Shown here one piece after another: positions 6,387 through 30,841 of a stretch of DNA of 64,000 nucleotides (positions within the stretch are counted from its first letter, which is position 1; each line of letters opens with the position of its first letter). A model generated the notes under the pieces. That model was not told the DNA's origin. It was given only the letters and a program-made list of their open reading frames with translations, and did not search any database. The translations under genes and the position numbers were made by a program. The stretch spans positions 124,001-188,000 of the forward strand of contig CALMVZ010000025.1 of the NCBI GenBank assembly GCA_937873155.1, given 5' to 3'. Source of the DNA: an uncultured Bacteroidota bacterium (lineage in GTDB: Bacteria; Bacteroidota; Bacteroidia; B-17B0; Aurantibacillaceae).

Positions 6387-9300
6387 TTATAATCGAGTGC
6401 CAATAACCAAAATATCATCCACTTGTTCTAACGTCCCGCGCCAACCTTCAATGGTTTTATCAAGTAAAGCCCCTTGTGCTTCCATAGATAAATGCTGGTT
6501 GTCAAGCAATAATTGCTTGAATGTAGAATATTTTAATTTTTTTCCATTAGGTCCGCCAAACTGATCCGCAAAGCCGTCAGAGAAAATATATAAAGTATCA
6601 CCCTCTTGTAAGGGAATGCTATGGTTGGTGAATTTTTTATTCTCACCTGCTTTTAAATTTCCGATAGGGAATTTATCAGCTTTGTATTCTGTTAATTCAC
6701 CTTTCCTGATCAGCCACATCGGATTATATGCACCTGCATATTCCATCACATTCGTTTTGCGGTTGAATGAGCAAAGGGCAATATCCATTCCGTCTTTCAC
6801 GGCGTTATCTTCAATGTAAGATTGACGTAAAGTAGCACTAACGGTTTTATTTAATTCATTTAAAATGTCAGAAGGTTTTGTTAAACCTTGTTCGCCCACG
6901 ATCTGATCTAATTTGCTATGACCAACAATACTCATAAATGCACCGGGAACACCATGGCCCGTGCAATCAACGGCGGCAAATAACACCTGGTCTTTTTTAT
7001 CATCCAGCCAATAGAAATCACCACTTACAATATCTTTTGGTTTAAAAAGGACAAAAGTTTTCGGAAGGAATTTTCTCACGAATTCATCCGGCGGTAAAAT
7101 AGCATCCTGGATTCGCTTTGCGTAACGTATACTCGCCATGATGTCGTTATTCTTTTCATCGAGTTCAATATTTTTTTGTACAACTTCTGCAGTGCGTTCT
7201 TCAACTTTCTCCTCTAATATTTTATTTTCGCGAACTAAGGCCCTTTCGCGGATCTTGATATAAGAAATTACAATAGCACCCCCGATAACAATAACTGAAA
7301 CATAGAACCACCACGTTTTCCAAAAAGGCGGGGCAATGCCGAAATAGATTTCTTTTGGTTCTTTATTGCACACACCGGCAGTATTGCAGGCGATTAATTT
7401 AAAAGTATATTTTCCGTGCGGAAGATTAGGATAAGAAACGGAATTCAGTTTTGTAATATGCCAAGCCTCATCATATCCTTCTAATTTTACTTTATAAGTT
7501 ATTCCTTCAGGATTTGATAAGGAAATACCAATGAAATTAAACGCAAGTGAATTTTCTTTATACGATAAATTGATCTCTTGAGTAATTGGTGTTTCTTTTT
7601 GATTGATCCTGAAACCTGTAATGTGAAGTCTAGGTTCAGGAAGTAAATTATTATCAAGAGAAGAAGAATATTTAAAAACGCCATTTACTGTACCAAACCA
7701 GATGTTCTTTTGTCCATCTGTAAATACTGCTTTCGGTTTTGTTTCAATACTGGTAAAGCCATCGTTCTTCTGATATGAGAAGAATTGCTTTTTGTCCTGG
7801 TCAAACTTACTTAAGCCTTTATTCGTTCCTAACCAGACATTATTTTTTTCATCAACAGAAACCAAGGTCACAAAATCCGAAAGCAAACCATCACTGACTT
7901 TATATTTAATGAATTTAGAATTCTCATAAACAAAAGCACCGCCGCCTTCAGTTCCGATCCAGATCTTTCCATTCTTGTCTTCGGCGATTGAAGTAATGCT
8001 GCTATAAGTTAATCCCTGGTCTTTTCCTAAAACCGTGAATTTACCTCCTTCAATAGTAGTGATCCCTTTTTGTTTTGTCCCGATCCAAACTTTTCCTTTA
8101 CTGTCTTCAAAAACGCATGTCACATCATTATCACTTAAGCCGTCAATATTGCGAATACTTTTTACCGCACCTGAATTCAGGTCAAAAACCGTAATGCCAT
8201 CTGCTGAACCTATCCACAATTTATTGTGCTTGTCAACTAACAAACAACTTACATAAGGATAAACGTATTCAAACAATTGCGGGATAGCTGAGAATTTATT
8301 TGTGGCTGCATTATATTTTACAACTCGCCCGCCCCAAATGCCAATGTAAAGGTCGCCATTCTTATCTTTTACAATAGAACGCACATTACTCACCGGGCTT
8401 CCTTCTATCTGCGGAATGTTTTTAAATTTTTTGTCGGCAGTTTCCTTTGGATTATAAATGGTCAGTCCTTCATTAGTACCGAACCAGTAATTTGAATTGT
8501 TGTCCTGGCAAACAGCCCATACTTGCGAATTAACCAGGCCATCAGCTTTAGAATAGGAAATGAATTTCTCGCCTTTGAACACCTGTAATCCTTCTCCTAA
8601 AGTTCCGATTAAAATATTGCCTTCGTTATCTTCGGCAATGCTTTTAATTTTATTTACTGCTAATCCATTGTTTGTATTAAACACGATCGTGTTCTTTGTT
8701 TCAGTGTTGATCTTACATAAACCAACATTTAAAACAGATGCCCAAATATTATGTTTACTGTCCTTGAAAATAGTATAAACAAAATTATTCGTTACAGCAA
8801 AAGAAGTAACATAAAGGTGATGATCAAAGATCGGCTGGAATTGGTTGTTACTGTATTTGTAAATAACACCGTTGGATGTCCCTAAGATGACATTATCATT
8901 TTCGTCTAAGAGGAAAGATGTTATCTGGCCAAAAGGCATTCCTTCAGGACGGAAAAAGTCAAATTTACCTGAAGCAGCATCCATCCATTTAATACCGATA
9001 TCGGTTAAGAACCACATATTGCCACTCTTGTCTTGCTGTGAAGAAAGAACGTATTGGCTCAGGCCTTCCTGCGAAGTATAAGCTTTGTAATTCGCTTTAT
9101 CATTTAAATTTCCTTCCGGGTCGACAATTGCGATTGCCCCTGCTGCTGAACAGATCCAGATCTGTCCTTTTTTATCTTGTGATAAAGAGAATATCTTTTT
9201 GTTCTTCGGAAGTGTTTCACAAATGACCGGTTGGAATTTTCCGTTGCTGTATTTGGTTAATGATCCGTTCTCATGAGCTAGCCATAAATTATTTTTCTTG

Positions 9301-9566
9301 TCAACCAACAAACAAGCAACGTTGTTATCTGATAAACCATTTTCTGTAGTGAAATTGACAAAATTCCTTCCGTCGAATTTAGAGATACCGCTTTCACTCG
9401 CCAGCCAGAAATAACCTTCTTTGTCCTGTGCTATGGCGGATACGTTCGATTGTGCTAGTCCGTCCTGCACGCCATAATTGGTGAATGGATAGGTTTGTGC
9501 CTGAATTAAAAAAGGGAAGAGAAGTAATGCAAGGAATGATATAATTGTTTTGTAAACGTGTGTCAT
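6387..9566 (-). CDS. Exported two-component-regulator propeller protein with SpoIIE-type PP2C phosphatase domain
   Basis: The 1059-residue protein has a signal peptide, then about fourteen Reg_prop blades (repeats like EDKNGKIWIGTEGG). A Y_Y_Y domain follows (about 680-745, LPHGKYTFKLIACN), then one TM segment (about 752-772), a coiled coil, and a C-terminal SpoIIE/PP2C domain (about 838-1059). Metal-binding aspartates are visible in SGDFYW (850), AVDCTGHG (867), SDG (997) and VDDI (1050/1051). The likely role is to sense an outside ligand and dephosphorylate a cytoplasmic partner, such as an anti-anti-sigma factor, though no such partner is encoded in the window. The coiled-coil end, SIRYAKRIQDAILPP, is nearly repeated at the ends of the TPR proteins at 25496-28854. 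The ATG lies inside a CAGAATGAC sequence at the edge of a dispersed repeat. Confidence 0.9.
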   Translation of the reverse strand: MTHVYKTIISFLALLLFPFLIQAQTYPFTNYGVQDGLAQSNVSAIAQDKEGYFWLASESGISKFDGRNFVNFTTENGLSDNNVACLLVDKKNNLWLAHENGSLTKYSNGKFQPVICETLPKNKKIFSLSQDKKGQIWICSAAGAIAIVDPEGNLNDKANYKAYTSQEGLSQYVLSSQQDKSGNMWFLTDIGIKWMDAASGKFDFFRPEGMPFGQITSFLLDENDNVILGTSNGVIYKYSNNQFQPIFDHHLYVTSFAVTNNFVYTIFKDSKHNIWASVLNVGLCKINTETKNTIVFNTNNGLAVNKIKSIAEDNEGNILIGTLGEGLQVFKGEKFISYSKADGLVNSQVWAVCQDNNSNYWFGTNEGLTIYNPKETADKKFKNIPQIEGSPVSNVRSIVKDKNGDLYIGIWGGRVVKYNAATNKFSAIPQLFEYVYPYVSCLLVDKHNKLWIGSADGITVFDLNSGAVKSIRNIDGLSDNDVTCVFEDSKGKVWIGTKQKGITTIEGGKFTVLGKDQGLTYSSITSIAEDKNGKIWIGTEGGGAFVYENSKFIKYKVSDGLLSDFVTLVSVDEKNNVWLGTNKGLSKFDQDKKQFFSYQKNDGFTSIETKPKAVFTDGQKNIWFGTVNGVFKYSSSLDNNLLPEPRLHITGFRINQKETPITQEINLSYKENSLAFNFIGISLSNPEGITYKVKLEGYDEAWHITKLNSVSYPNLPHGKYTFKLIACNTAGVCNKEPKEIYFGIAPPFWKTWWFYVSVIVIGGAIVISYIKIRERALVRENKILEEKVEERTAEVVQKNIELDEKNNDIMASIRYAKRIQDAILPPDEFVRKFLPKTFVLFKPKDIVSGDFYWLDDKKDQVLFAAVDCTGHGVPGAFMSIVGHSKLDQIVGEQGLTKPSDILNELNKTVSATLRQSYIEDNAVKDGMDIALCSFNRKTNVMEYAGAYNPMWLIRKGELTEYKADKFPIGNLKAGENKKFTNHSIPLQEGDTLYIFSDGFADQFGGPNGKKLKYSTFKQLLLDNQHLSMEAQGALLDKTIEGWRGTLEQVDDILVIGTRL

Positions 9567-25495: not shown

Positions 25496-26986
25496 GTGAT
25501 CCATAGGCTCAAGAAAATATTCATTCTTCTTTTTGTAAGTTTTAACCTGTTCGGACAAAACACAGACTCACTCAAGCTTGCATTTAAAAATGCAAAGCAC
25601 GACACAACACGCTGCTATATTTTAGAGGCATTAATTGAAAATGAGACCAGCGACGAACTTTGGCAAAAATATGGTTGGGCCATTCTTAAAATTACCGATA
25701 AAGCTTTGGACTTAGATCCATCAGAAAAACTTAGAATAGCTTACACTGAATATAAAGCTTATGCACTTAATGTTATTGGACAGGTAGAAGCCAACCGCGG
25801 CAATATTAATAAAGCAATGGATCTTTATAAAGAGGGATTAAAATTGCAGGAAGAAGTTAATGATGATGCGGGTATCGCTGCATCTCTGAACAGCATTGGC
25901 TTTTTATATAACGACTTAGGTGATATTCCCAAAGCCCTGGAATGTTATCATAAAAGTTTGCGCATTGGTGAGAAGTTGAACGATAAAGGGGTTATCTCCA
26001 CTTTATTAAATAACATAGGGCTAATTTACCAGTCACAGTACGAAGGACCGAAGGCTCTTGAATATTTTACCAAGTGTTTAAAGATCTGCGAAGAGATCAA
26101 GGATGATGACGGGATCAAAACAGCGTTACTGAATATTGGCGGCGTTTATTATGACCTGAACGATATACCTAAAGCACTTGAGTATTATTACAAGAGTTCA
26201 GAGATCTGCAAAGCCATCAATGACATGGACGGAGTGGCAGCTGTTCTTAATAATATTGGAATGGTCCATTGGAAAAAAAATAATCTGAAGGAATCGGTAA
26301 ATTCTTTTCAGGAGGCTTTAAAGATACAGGAAGGCGTGAGTCAGAAGTCAGATATTTCAATAACATCGTGTAATATTGCTAATATTAAATTCCAGCAAGG
26401 TTTTACAGATGAGGCTTTACCTTATGCGCTAAAAAGTTATTCAATTGCAATCGCGATAGGCTACCCTGAACAGATAGGAAGTGCTGCAATGATCCTGAAA
26501 GATATTTATCATAAACAGAACAAACACAAAGAGGCTTTTGAAATGTACGAGTTGCAAATAAAAATGCGTGACAGTATCAATAATGAGGAAACGGAACGAT
26601 CAACTATTAAAAAACAGTTCCAGTATGCGTATGAAAAGCAAGCTGCACAGGACAGTGTTAAACATGCCGAAGCACAAAAAGTAACCAACGCCCAATTATT
26701 AGCGCAGGAAGCTGAATTTACCAAGGAGAAAACACAACGGGTGGTCTTGTATGGTGGTTTGGCATTATTACTTGCGGGAAGCGGTTTGGTATTTAACCGT
26801 TTCAGGTTAACGCAAAAGCAGAAACAGATTATTCAGCAGCAAAAAGAGCAGGTTGGTTTTGCTTACGATCAGCTGCATTCAAAGAATAAGGAAGTGATGG
26901 ATAGTATCAATTATGCATCGCGGATCCAGAATTCGTTGTTGCCGACTGAAAAATATATTTCAAAGATCCTGGATAAGAATAAATGA
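25496..26986 (+). CDS. Exported TPR protein with TM and coiled coil, ending at the SpoIIE-type linker (paralogue 1)
   Basis: The 496-residue protein starts at GTG 25496 with a signal-peptide-like segment (MIHRLKKIFILLFVSFNLFG). TPR repeats of the Rapsyn/LGN kind (NSIGFLYNDLGDIPKALECYHK) fill residues about 90-350. One TM segment (about 412-432) and a cytoplasmic coiled coil follow. It stops at SINYASRIQNSLLPTEKYISKIL, the linker that precedes the phosphatase domain in the propeller-SpoIIE protein at 6387-9566. The catalytic domain is absent. The next gene starts inside this stop codon (ATGA). Confidence 0.85.
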   Translation: MIHRLKKIFILLFVSFNLFGQNTDSLKLAFKNAKHDTTRCYILEALIENETSDELWQKYGWAILKITDKALDLDPSEKLRIAYTEYKAYALNVIGQVEANRGNINKAMDLYKEGLKLQEEVNDDAGIAASLNSIGFLYNDLGDIPKALECYHKSLRIGEKLNDKGVISTLLNNIGLIYQSQYEGPKALEYFTKCLKICEEIKDDDGIKTALLNIGGVYYDLNDIPKALEYYYKSSEICKAINDMDGVAAVLNNIGMVHWKKNNLKESVNSFQEALKIQEGVSQKSDISITSCNIANIKFQQGFTDEALPYALKSYSIAIAIGYPEQIGSAAMILKDIYHKQNKHKEAFEMYELQIKMRDSINNEETERSTIKKQFQYAYEKQAAQDSVKHAEAQKVTNAQLLAQEAEFTKEKTQRVVLYGGLALLLAGSGLVFNRFRLTQKQKQIIQQQKEQVGFAYDQLHSKNKEVMDSINYASRIQNSLLPTEKYISKILDKNK

Positions 26987-28854
26987 AAACGCGCCTCATA
27001 AATATGATAATCTTTCTGAGTGTCTTTGTACTCGCACGGGTTTCATATGCTCAGGATAAGACGGTTGATTCCTTAAAACTCGCTTTGAAGAACGCGAAAC
27101 ACGATACAAAACGCTGTGATATTTTAAATCAGTTAGCCGAATTAAGTGAAGATGAAAGCTTGCTTTATACTGAACAGCTTTTAACACTGGCACAAAAAAA
27201 TAGTTTAACCGCATCAAAGCAGGATAAACCTTTTTACCTGAGACATTGCGGGGATGCATTCGGGAATTTTGGAATGATCGCAAATGCTGAAGATAATGTG
27301 CCAAAAGCAATAGACTATTTTAATAAGAGTCTGAAGATCTATCAGCAGATCGATGATAAAGAAGGAATAGCGCTTACATTTAATAATCTTGGTTTTATGT
27401 ATCAGAGTTTGGGTGAGATGAATAAAGCGATCGGCTATTTTAAGAAGGGCTTAAGTTTTTCTGAAGCCATCGATGATAAACCCGGGTTGAGTAATCTATT
27501 AAACAACATCGGACTGCTTTACTTTTACCAGGGGGATCATAATAAAGCAATGGACTATTATGGAAAAAGTTTGAAGATACAGGAAGAGATCGGCTATAAA
27601 CCGGGAATGTGTGTCTCTTTAAATAACATAGCTGTTGTTTATGATAATCAAGGAGAGATACCTAAAGCCCTCGACAGCTATGAAAAATCTTTAAAGATCT
27701 GTGAAGAGATCGACAGTAAAGAAGATGCTGCTAATACATTAAGTAATGTAGCTGATATTTACGACAAGCAAGGAGACATCCCGAAAGCATTAGCTTATCA
27801 TCATAAGAGTTTAAAGATGAAGGAAGAATTAAAAGATAAAAGGGGAATTGCGAACTCCTTAAATTTCATTGGTCTTATTTATTTCAATCAGGGAGACGTT
27901 AGCAAAGCTTTAGAGTATTATAAAAAGAGTTTGAAGATCAGAGAGGCAATTCAGGATAAGATGGGGATTTCTGTTTCGTTGAATAATTTAGGTCAGATCT
28001 ACAGAAAGCAGAAGGATCTTCCCAAAGCTCTCGACTATTTTAACAGGAGTTTAAAAATAAAAGAAGAGATAGGCGATAAATCAGGATTTGCTTATGCGTT
28101 AGGAAATCTTGGTGTGATCTATGATGAGGATAAAAAAGATTTTAATAAAGCCATGGAATATTACACCCGGAGTTTGAAGCTAAGGGAAGAGATGAGTGAT
28201 AAGGAAGGAATTGCGCACTCTTCTTGCAATATTGCCAGTGCAATGTTCAGCATTGGCGAACTCGGAAAGGCTCTGGGCTATGCAGAAAAAAGTTTAAGAC
28301 TGGCGAAGGAATTAGGTTTTCCGGCAAGTATTAAACATGCGGCAACCATCCTGAAAAAAATATATACTAAGCAAAATAAATACAAAGAAGCTTTTGAGAT
28401 GTTTGACCTTGAAACGAAGATGCGTGACAGTATCAGCAACCAGGAAACAAAAAAAGCAGCAATTAAAAAACAATATGAGTATGCTTATGAAAAAAGAGCT
28501 GCACAGGATAGCGTAAGGAATGCCGAAGAAAAAAAGATAAAAGATGCGAAGTTGATAACACAAAGTTCGCAACTGGAGAAAGAGAAGACGCAGCGTTTTG
28601 CTTTGTATGGAGGTCTTGTGCTGGTTCTGTCGTTCGGCGGATTTGTATTCAACCGTTTTAGAGTTGCACAAAAGCAGAAAGTAATTATTGAATCGCAGAA
28701 AAGGGAAGTGGATGAAGCTTACGAAAAACTTCATGAAAAGAACAAACAGGTGATGGATAGCATAAATTACGCCCGCATGATACAAAGGTCTTTACTGCCG
28801 TCAGAAAAGTACATGACAAGAATTTTTAGTGAAAGCGGGAAAACTAAAACTTAA
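26983..28854 (+). CDS. Exported TPR protein with TM and coiled coil, ending at the SpoIIE-type linker (paralogue 2)
   Basis: The 623-residue protein is a longer copy of its upstream neighbour: signal peptide, about nine TPRs (NNLGFMYQSLGEMNKAIGYFKK type), a TM segment (about 540-560), a coiled coil and the end SINYARMIQRSLLPSEKYMTRIF. The ATG overlaps the upstream stop by 4 bp, so the pair is translationally coupled. Both share the sequence KNAKHDTxRCxIL after the signal peptide, which points to tandem duplication. No phosphatase or kinase domain follows in any frame of the 223-bp gap. A signalling adaptor that has lost its catalytic half is possible, or both may interact through the coiled coil with a full-length protein. 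Confidence 0.88.
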   Translation: MKTRLINMIIFLSVFVLARVSYAQDKTVDSLKLALKNAKHDTKRCDILNQLAELSEDESLLYTEQLLTLAQKNSLTASKQDKPFYLRHCGDAFGNFGMIANAEDNVPKAIDYFNKSLKIYQQIDDKEGIALTFNNLGFMYQSLGEMNKAIGYFKKGLSFSEAIDDKPGLSNLLNNIGLLYFYQGDHNKAMDYYGKSLKIQEEIGYKPGMCVSLNNIAVVYDNQGEIPKALDSYEKSLKICEEIDSKEDAANTLSNVADIYDKQGDIPKALAYHHKSLKMKEELKDKRGIANSLNFIGLIYFNQGDVSKALEYYKKSLKIREAIQDKMGISVSLNNLGQIYRKQKDLPKALDYFNRSLKIKEEIGDKSGFAYALGNLGVIYDEDKKDFNKAMEYYTRSLKLREEMSDKEGIAHSSCNIASAMFSIGELGKALGYAEKSLRLAKELGFPASIKHAATILKKIYTKQNKYKEAFEMFDLETKMRDSISNQETKKAAIKKQYEYAYEKRAAQDSVRNAEEKKIKDAKLITQSSQLEKEKTQRFALYGGLVLVLSFGGFVFNRFRVAQKQKVIIESQKREVDEAYEKLHEKNKQVMDSINYARMIQRSLLPSEKYMTRIFSESGKTKT

Positions 28855-28902: not shown

Positions 28903-29058
28903 ATCCTGAAGGGATGAAATTATTATAGAAAAAGCACGAAACAAGCAAAATCCCGGAGGGATGACATTGCGTGTCTTACCATTCGGATATTTCACCCTTT
29001 CATGGTTTAATGTGTTTGAATAATTTGATCCCGGAATAATAACATCCCTTCGGGATTG
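28903..29058. repeat. ATCCCGAAGGGATG-type dispersed inverted repeats
   Basis: Related words ATCCTGAAGGGATGAAAT (28903-28920), AATCCCGGAGGGATGACATT (28950-28969) and, inverted, AACATCCCTTCGGGATT (29041-29057) fill the 223-bp gap between the TPR gene and aspS. They look like a REP-like family. No gene is seen in the gap. Confidence 0.65.
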
Positions 29059-29077: not shown

Positions 29078-30841
29078 TCAAATCTTAATTCCCAATTCCT
29101 TCAATTGCTCTTCGCTGATCGGACTTGGGCTTTCTATCATAAGATCTTTGCCCGAATTATTTTTAGGAAAAGCAATATAATCACGGATAGTATCTGCGCC
29201 GCCGAATAAGGAACACAAACGATCGAATCCAAACGCAATACCACCATGTGGAGGCGCGCCGAATTCAAACGCATTCATTAAGAATCCGAATTGATTTTGT
29301 GCTTCTTCAGCAGTAAAGCCCAATGTCTTGAACATTAAAGCCTGTAAATTTTTATCATGGATACGGATACTGCCGCCGCCAACCTCAACACCGTTAATGA
29401 CCATGTCGTAAGCATTTGCACGCACAGCTCCCGGATCAGAACTTAATAAAGAAATATCTTCAGGTTTTGGAGAAGTGAAAGGATGATGTTTCGCCACCCA
29501 ACGTCCACGAAGTGATTCTAATAAATTGGTATCACCTTCGTTCCATTCTAATAAAGGAAAATCAATTACCCACAGACAAGAGAATTTATTTTTATCGCGT
29601 AAGCCTAAACGGGTTCCCATCTCTAAACGTAATTCGCTTAAAGCTTTTCTTGTTTTATCTGCACCACCTGCCAACAATAACATTAAGTCGCCGGGTTGTG
29701 CATTAAATGCAGCGGCCCATTTTTTTAATTCTTCTTCGTTGTAAAATTTATCTACAGATGATTTAAGTGTTCCGTCTGAATTATAACGCGCATAAACCAA
29801 ACCTGTAGCGCCTATCTGCGGACGTTTTACAAATTCAGTTAATTCATCTAATTGCTTACGTGTATATTCAGCAGCCCCTTTCGCGCAAATACCAACAACG
29901 AGTTCTGCATCGTTGAATATTTTGAATTCTTTTCCTTTCACCACATCATTCAACTCCACGAATTTCATTTCGAAACGTGTATCCGGTTTATCGTTACCGT
30001 AAAATTTCATCGCATCGGCATAGGTCATGCGTGACATAACAGGAATTTCAATATCTTTTACTTTCCTGAACAAATATTTTACTAAACCTTCGAATGTATT
30101 TAAAATATCTTCCTGCTCAATGAAACTCATTTCGCAGTCTATTTGCGTGAACTCCGGTTGCCTGTCAGCACGCAGATCTTCATCACGGAAACATTTTACG
30201 ATCTGATAGTAACGGTCGAAACCTGCCACCATTAATAATTGCTTGAAGGTTTGCGGACTTTGCGGCAAAGCGTAAAAAGACCCTTGATTCATCCGGCTTG
30301 GCACAACGAAATCACGAGCGCCTTCCGGAGTAGATTTAATAAGAACAGGAGTTTCTACTTCAAGGAAATTTTGCTGGTCTAAATAATTCCTGGTTTCAAT
30401 TGCTAAGCGGTGACGTAATTCTAAACTTTTTCTTACAACACTTCTGCGGAGATCAAGGTAACGGTATTTCATGCGCAGTTCTTCGCCGCCATCCGTTTCA
30501 TCTTCGATGGTGAATGGGGGAGTAATAGCAGAATTTAAAACAGTGAAGTCGCTTACTTTAATTTCAATTTCACCGGTTGGATTATTTTTGTTCTTGCTTG
30601 AGCGTTCAATAACTGTTCCTTTAACCTGTAACACAAATTCCCGTCCAACACTTCCTGCTTTTGCGGCAAGATCTTTATTCCATTCCGGATTAAAAGTTAA
30701 TTGGGTTATACCATAGCGGTCGCGGAGGTCGATAAAAGTCATACCCCCTAAGTCACGGCTTTTTTGCACCCAACCGCATAATGTAACTTCTTTGTTTACA
30801 TCCGAAATCCTTAATTCCCCGCAGGTAACTGTTCTTAACAT
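29078..30841 (-). CDS. aspS: Aspartyl-tRNA synthetase
   Basis: The 587-residue class IIb synthetase charges tRNA-Asp. It has the N-terminal OB fold ([21 protein letters not shown]), motif 2 ([18 protein letters not shown]), the bacterial GAD insertion domain (about 290-420) and motif 3 ([10 protein letters not shown]). The length is right for the bacterial form, which has the insert. Whether it is discriminating or also charges tRNA-Asn cannot be told from this window; no gatCAB genes are present here. It is a single-gene unit. Confidence 0.96.

Follow-up and report, generated by a model that had tools for sequence, protein, structure and literature searches.

To our knowledge, the PPM signalling phosphatases known from bacteria either carry the sensor and the catalyst in one chain or have a dedicated activating partner. 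In the usual one-chain form, the order is a sensor, a crossing coiled coil, two helices and the catalytic domain. The dimer of SiaA is built by helices 1, 2 and 3 (PMC7647112), while crossing linkers that dimerise PPM domains are an established control element in RsbU and a proposed one in its relatives (PMC12143880). We consider it probable, at roughly 70%, that the pair of proteins described below are sensory subunits of a split SiaA/SpoIIE PPM phosphatase, in which about 37 sensors share one catalytic subunit. The catalytic half is not a new fold or a new chemistry, being a SpoIIE/SiaA-type PPM. As far as the literature shows, the new element is the split itself, with its many-to-one ratio of sensors to enzyme; in our literature searches, we came across no account of either tail-only SpoIIE sensors or the stand-alone PPM.

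The window, i.e., the whole analysed stretch of 64,000 nucleotides from an uncultured Bacteroidota bacterium, carries the two sensor genes on its plus strand. According to the ORF list, Pfam and the sequence, sensor 1 (25496-26986, 496 aa) and sensor 2 (26983-28854, 623 aa) both run from TPR repeats through a TM segment and a coiled coil to a linker tail and a stop codon. The TM segments are predictions read from the sequence, located at 26741-26796 (the hydrophobic stretch VVLYGGLALLLAGSGLVFN) and 28600-28652, respectively. Both ORFs are intact, with a GTG start in sensor 1 and an ATG start in sensor 2, and they overlap, as the preliminary description of this DNA had it, the overlap being 4 bp. 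A profile of 36 paralogues places the C-terminal tail module of sensor 1 at 26849-26983 (coiled coil plus SINYASRIQNSLLPTEKYISKILDKNK); the same profile and the SiaA profile place that of sensor 2 at 28705-28851 (SINYARMIQRSLLPSEKYMTRIFSESGKTKT), and in each case a stop codon follows directly. TPR repeats are the sole Pfam domains of the two proteins. The SpoIIE/PPM catalytic domain PF07228 gave no Pfam match in either of them, and the window sensors are not members of this phosphatase family. HisKA and HATPase domains likewise had no Pfam match in the two sensors, nor are they on the list of families compiled for the 36 short proteins discussed below; similarity to FimS is confined to the TPR part.

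A full-length protein for comparison is encoded on the minus strand of the same window (6387-9566). In agreement with what had been noted earlier, it carries a phosphatase domain behind the same linker: Pfam places SpoIIE at residues 858-1056, and Pfam, the SiaA profile and AlphaFold together delineate a propeller, Y_Y_Y, the linker and the SpoIIE/PPM phosphatase in one chain. Nothing of this sort follows the sensor pair. Position 28854 is succeeded by a gap of 223 bp and then by aspS (29078-30841, minus strand), so that there is no phosphatase downstream of sensor 2; readthrough or frameshifting into a PPM domain was rejected on account of the same convergent gene. Pfam, the ORFs and aspS thus bear out the initial claim that both proteins end in the linker preceding a SpoIIE domain. 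In two relatives (G002 and G004), syntenic counterparts of the pair also adjoin aspS, and both genes are short there too. An assembly error at 28854 and a phosphatase domain in all close homologues, which had been named as possible objections, are both contradicted by these counterparts. In the gap behind the pair, TCCCGNAGGGATG occurs three times, once with a mismatch (28904-29055); the element has five matches across the window against 0.12 expected and is probably an intergenic repeat.

The C-terminal 160 residues were then used to search the complete 4.85 Mb genome, and the loci at the resulting 79 places were read. About half of them continue into a SpoIIE domain, while 36 end 25-35 residues past the start of the motif, most commonly after 28 residues. 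Another intact short protein was found at C11:159 kb, bringing the family to about 37 in this genome. The preliminary description was therefore right that the two short proteins are real, but they are two of about 37. Its suggestion of two independent losses, or of one duplicated and truncated ancestor, does not hold, as the short form is a genome-wide family with many kinds of sensor that is represented in at least eight families of the class. The common tail module reads DSIxYAKRIQxSLLPTEKYIxKxLxxLKK-stop. All 36 short proteins share its S, I, Y, A, I and Q without exception, the Y of EKY is kept in 34 of them, and the final residues are basic. A full-length alignment of the 36 proteins contains six invariant columns, every one inside the tail, as are four of the five near-invariant ones. 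Since this ending is common to 36 proteins of one genome with six invariant residues, it is not due to chance. The sensor parts are of different types: TPR repeats in 31 of the 36, 7TMR-DISM in two, a propeller with Y_Y_Y in one, and others unlike these in the rest. Sitting on such diverse sensors, the tail is an independent module.

The positions past the proline are variable in full-length proteins and lead into LPxSFVLYKPKDIVSGDFYW. Some full-length linkers (of the TSExYxK type) resemble the short tail as far as the last helix and, judging by this resemblance, might have been the source of the short form. The score of a first profile (A1) alone failed to split the two groups, some full-length linkers scoring equally high, and the separation was done by combining a tail-only profile (A2) with inspection of the loci. 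The preliminary description had proposed collecting homologues to look for conserved shorter forms, and these do exist: the motif-bearing ORFs read in fetched public loci comprised 139 short and 42 full-length ones, although the loci overlap and these are not counts of distinct genes. Five consecutive short sensors form an array at C13:17690-24802 of the genome under study and at public locus L145, where the array terminates in a stand-alone PPM. In L143 (3-2648) and L170 (2771-5722), the frame of a short tail stays open and continues into the TPR sensor that follows, which looks like tandem short genes joined through the loss of a stop codon. At C2:14018-14161 and C2:76856-77032, there are decayed short-sensor remnants with an intact tail and a broken upstream part, which point to gene turnover within the family.

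What the short proteins lack is found elsewhere in the genome, outside the window. Among its 41 SpoIIE genes (about 40 of them full-length), only one encodes fewer than 400 aa, namely, a stand-alone PPM of 237 aa. It begins at KNFFILYKPKDIVSGDFYY, where the short proteins stop; it matches PF07228 (E = 5.7e-21), and its catalytic aspartates are all kept (GDFY, ADCTGHG, DGMD, DGFADQ and VDD). Stand-alone frames have 236-277 aa and occur once per genome. In a tree of 30 stand-alone PPMs and 70 full-length PPM domains, the former make up one clade (SH-aLRT 98) requiring one change, which on this tree indicates a single origin of the gene.

Operon linkage between the two kinds of gene is frequent. 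In seven public loci and the genome under study, the stand-alone PPM gene (about 236 aa, with the N-terminus METxTETKNFFILYKPKDIVSGDFYY) lies 4-35 bp behind a short gene. Overall, a short gene is its direct neighbour in 15 of 28 genomes (gap of at most about 140 bp), against an expectation that we ourselves estimate at about 2%; in the other 13, the two are not adjacent. At C10:537320-540234 of the genome under study, an rsmI-like methyltransferase gene is followed first by a short sensor and then by the stand-alone PPM. In G004 and G003 (loci L200 and L202), the sensor is missing and the PPM directly follows the methyltransferase gene; therefore, it is an autonomous gene and not the broken end of its neighbour, and to judge from this gene order, it can apparently be expressed without a neighbouring sensor. 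At public locus L247 (2236-3692), a PPM-bearing frame and the stand-alone PPM gene lie on either side of a 39-aa frame that consists of the tail alone.

Among 21 relatives, only G000-G005 and G019 have the stand-alone gene, and these are also the sole relatives whose best tail match is a short protein. In 345 genomes of the class, the gene was found in 23, with 22 complete single copies and one fragment at a contig end (G328). A tail search of the same genomes (E <= 1e-8) returned these 23 and four others (G018, G111, G205 and G229), which were rejected as additional short-tail genomes, their matches being full-length. Thus, short proteins occur in 23/23 genomes with the stand-alone gene and in 0/322 without it. 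The exact p of about 2e-36 is taken before allowing for relatedness and overstates independence, the genomes being kin; the short-protein counts are lower bounds, as divergent forms may escape the tail search and the one in G213 nearly did. Families f1 and f21 each hold both states. In a sample of 395 genomes of the phylum, the stand-alone gene was matched only in the genome under study (E <= 1e-92), and the system therefore looks confined to part of the class. A tail search of public collections returned hundreds of stretches, nearly all from Bacteroidota MAGs. One locus in a record titled Candidatus Saccharibacteria (L181) contains a Bacteroidota-type SpoIIE gene and is probably a misbinned contig.

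It is against this distribution that the first alternative has to be weighed, namely, that the common coiled coil brings short sensors and full-length SpoIIE proteins together, the short ones being inhibitory or co-sensing subunits of heterodimers. The coiled coil and the SIxYAxRIQ motif are indeed nearly identical in short and full-length proteins, and crossing linkers are known to dimerise PPM phosphatases (PMC12143880). However, G006, G007 and G011, with 50, 59 and 61 SpoIIE matches, have neither the stand-alone gene nor a verified short protein, and genus mates with 50-59 full-length SpoIIE proteins are among the genomes devoid of the short form. The short proteins track the stand-alone PPM instead, and only 4/36 short genes have a SpoIIE gene nearby, which in one case is the stand-alone PPM itself. 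Because short proteins are missing from genomes that are rich in SpoIIE but lack the stand-alone PPM, we disfavour a partnership with full-length SpoIIE and consider it unlikely. Of the roles that the preliminary description had envisaged, a linker with a function of its own, a sensory role and the formation of complexes with a partner are all supported, but the partner indicated is the single-copy PPM outside the window and not a full-length SpoIIE protein.

The two pieces fit SiaA without overlap. On the NCBIfam SiaA profile (NF038263), residues 570-612 of sensor 2 match positions 391-433 and the stand-alone PPM matches 437-656, so that jointly they cover the C-terminal part of the profile; the one-chain protein of the window matches 384-656. 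The respective scores are 22.9, 126 and 209 bits against a curated cut-off of 700, which makes all three SiaA-related by profile score and not equivalogs. In the AlphaFold model of the stand-alone PPM (pLDDT 85), the PPM fold is complete and N-terminal helices are absent. In the one-chain protein, the model (pLDDT 88) has a long helix at 2-53, a short one at 57-63 and the first strand at 67. The one-chain relative is thus predicted to have two helices ahead of the PPM, and the tails conserve them. For both proteins, the closest solved fold is the PP2C domain of SiaA (6k4e). By our reading, drawn from the residue numbering of the SiaA paper plus an alignment, helices 1 and 2 of SiaA would be homologous to the sensor tail.

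A second alternative keeps the two proteins in one pathway without contact: the tails would homodimerise and recruit another effector, not the stand-alone PPM. In its favour, the stand-alone gene lies far from short genes in some cases, and its interaction with the tail is one that we infer. Nevertheless, the tail and the stand-alone PPM are complementary parts of one known protein, SiaA, and the boundary between them coincides with that between dimerisation helices and catalytic core, which leaves this alternative quite improbable. As for the short proteins being functionless recent truncations or decaying paralogues of full-length phosphatases, the two remnants on C2 are of that kind, but 36 intact proteins with a sharply conserved end, the equally short syntenic orthologues of the window pair and the spread over at least eight families make this hardly credible, recent truncation being refuted by the conservation of the short form.

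We therefore return to the split phosphatase. Its chain would be cut between the two helices and the first catalytic strand, each of the approximately 37 sensors ending with the helices YAKRIQxSLL and PTEKYIxKxLxxLKK, and the single-copy gene elsewhere in the genome supplying the bare catalytic domain. A sensor dimer would offer both helices in trans from its cytoplasmic end, and by docking on them the stand-alone PPM may enter the dimeric arrangement that controls catalysis, being switched either on or off. In this manner, different sensors would address one common enzyme. We somewhat favour the further idea of a sensory hub: dozens of sensors, some in the membrane and others soluble, but all with a common 30-residue tail, would compete for, or co-assemble with, one trans-acting PPM.

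Candidate substrates are present in the same genome. SiaC-type proteins (PF09345) gave five matches, three of them directly beside full-length SpoIIE genes (C10:184990-185340, C38:3515-3895 and C2:26526-26870), and this adjacency suggests that SiaC-like phosphoproteins are substrates of the phosphatase network. One RsbW-like kinase and STAS matches were also found. Judging from this gene content, the stand-alone PPM likely acts on SiaC-type or STAS phosphoproteins, opposite the RsbW-like kinase.

If true, the many-to-one split would be a new wiring for serine/threonine signalling, and hundreds of proteins annotated merely as TPR proteins would gain a function. The separation of tail and enzyme in nature would also be a test of the coiled-coil linker plus two helices as a portable PPM control element, and the sensory hub would be the phosphatase counterpart of the chemoreceptor-CheA arrangement.

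Finally, we would like to compare this system with those already described. Closest is SiaA of the Pseudomonas aeruginosa SiaABCD threonine-phosphorylation pathway (PDB 6k4e), which has the same helix-helix-PPM order, is the best profile and fold match, dimerises via the tail-equivalent helices and has counterparts of its substrate SiaC among our candidates. However, SiaA is one chain with one sensor, whereas here, the catalytic core is a protein apart from the sensors with their helices, and many sensors correspond to one core. The likeness to RsbU, RsbP and RssB lies in the crossing coiled-coil linker that dimerises PPM domains. RssB of E. coli further illustrates how a derivative without activity can survive in an adaptor role; yet RssB still has part of the PPM fold and contacts its client directly, while nothing of that fold is left in the short sensors, and there is a separate active PPM besides. 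No partial or degenerate PPM domain of the RssB type was found in the short chains, which end before the first PPM strand. RsbX, the stand-alone PPM of Bacillus, is a single-domain PPM of the same fold (3w40 is among the structure matches). We know of no dedicated sensor family of RsbX that ends in its missing helices. The logic of many variable sensors with one conserved signalling end and a common output is familiar from the RsbR paralogues of the stressosome and from chemoreceptors sharing CheA. These are unrelated in sequence to our sensors, and their output is a STAS/kinase complex or a histidine kinase, whereas here it would be a phosphatase.
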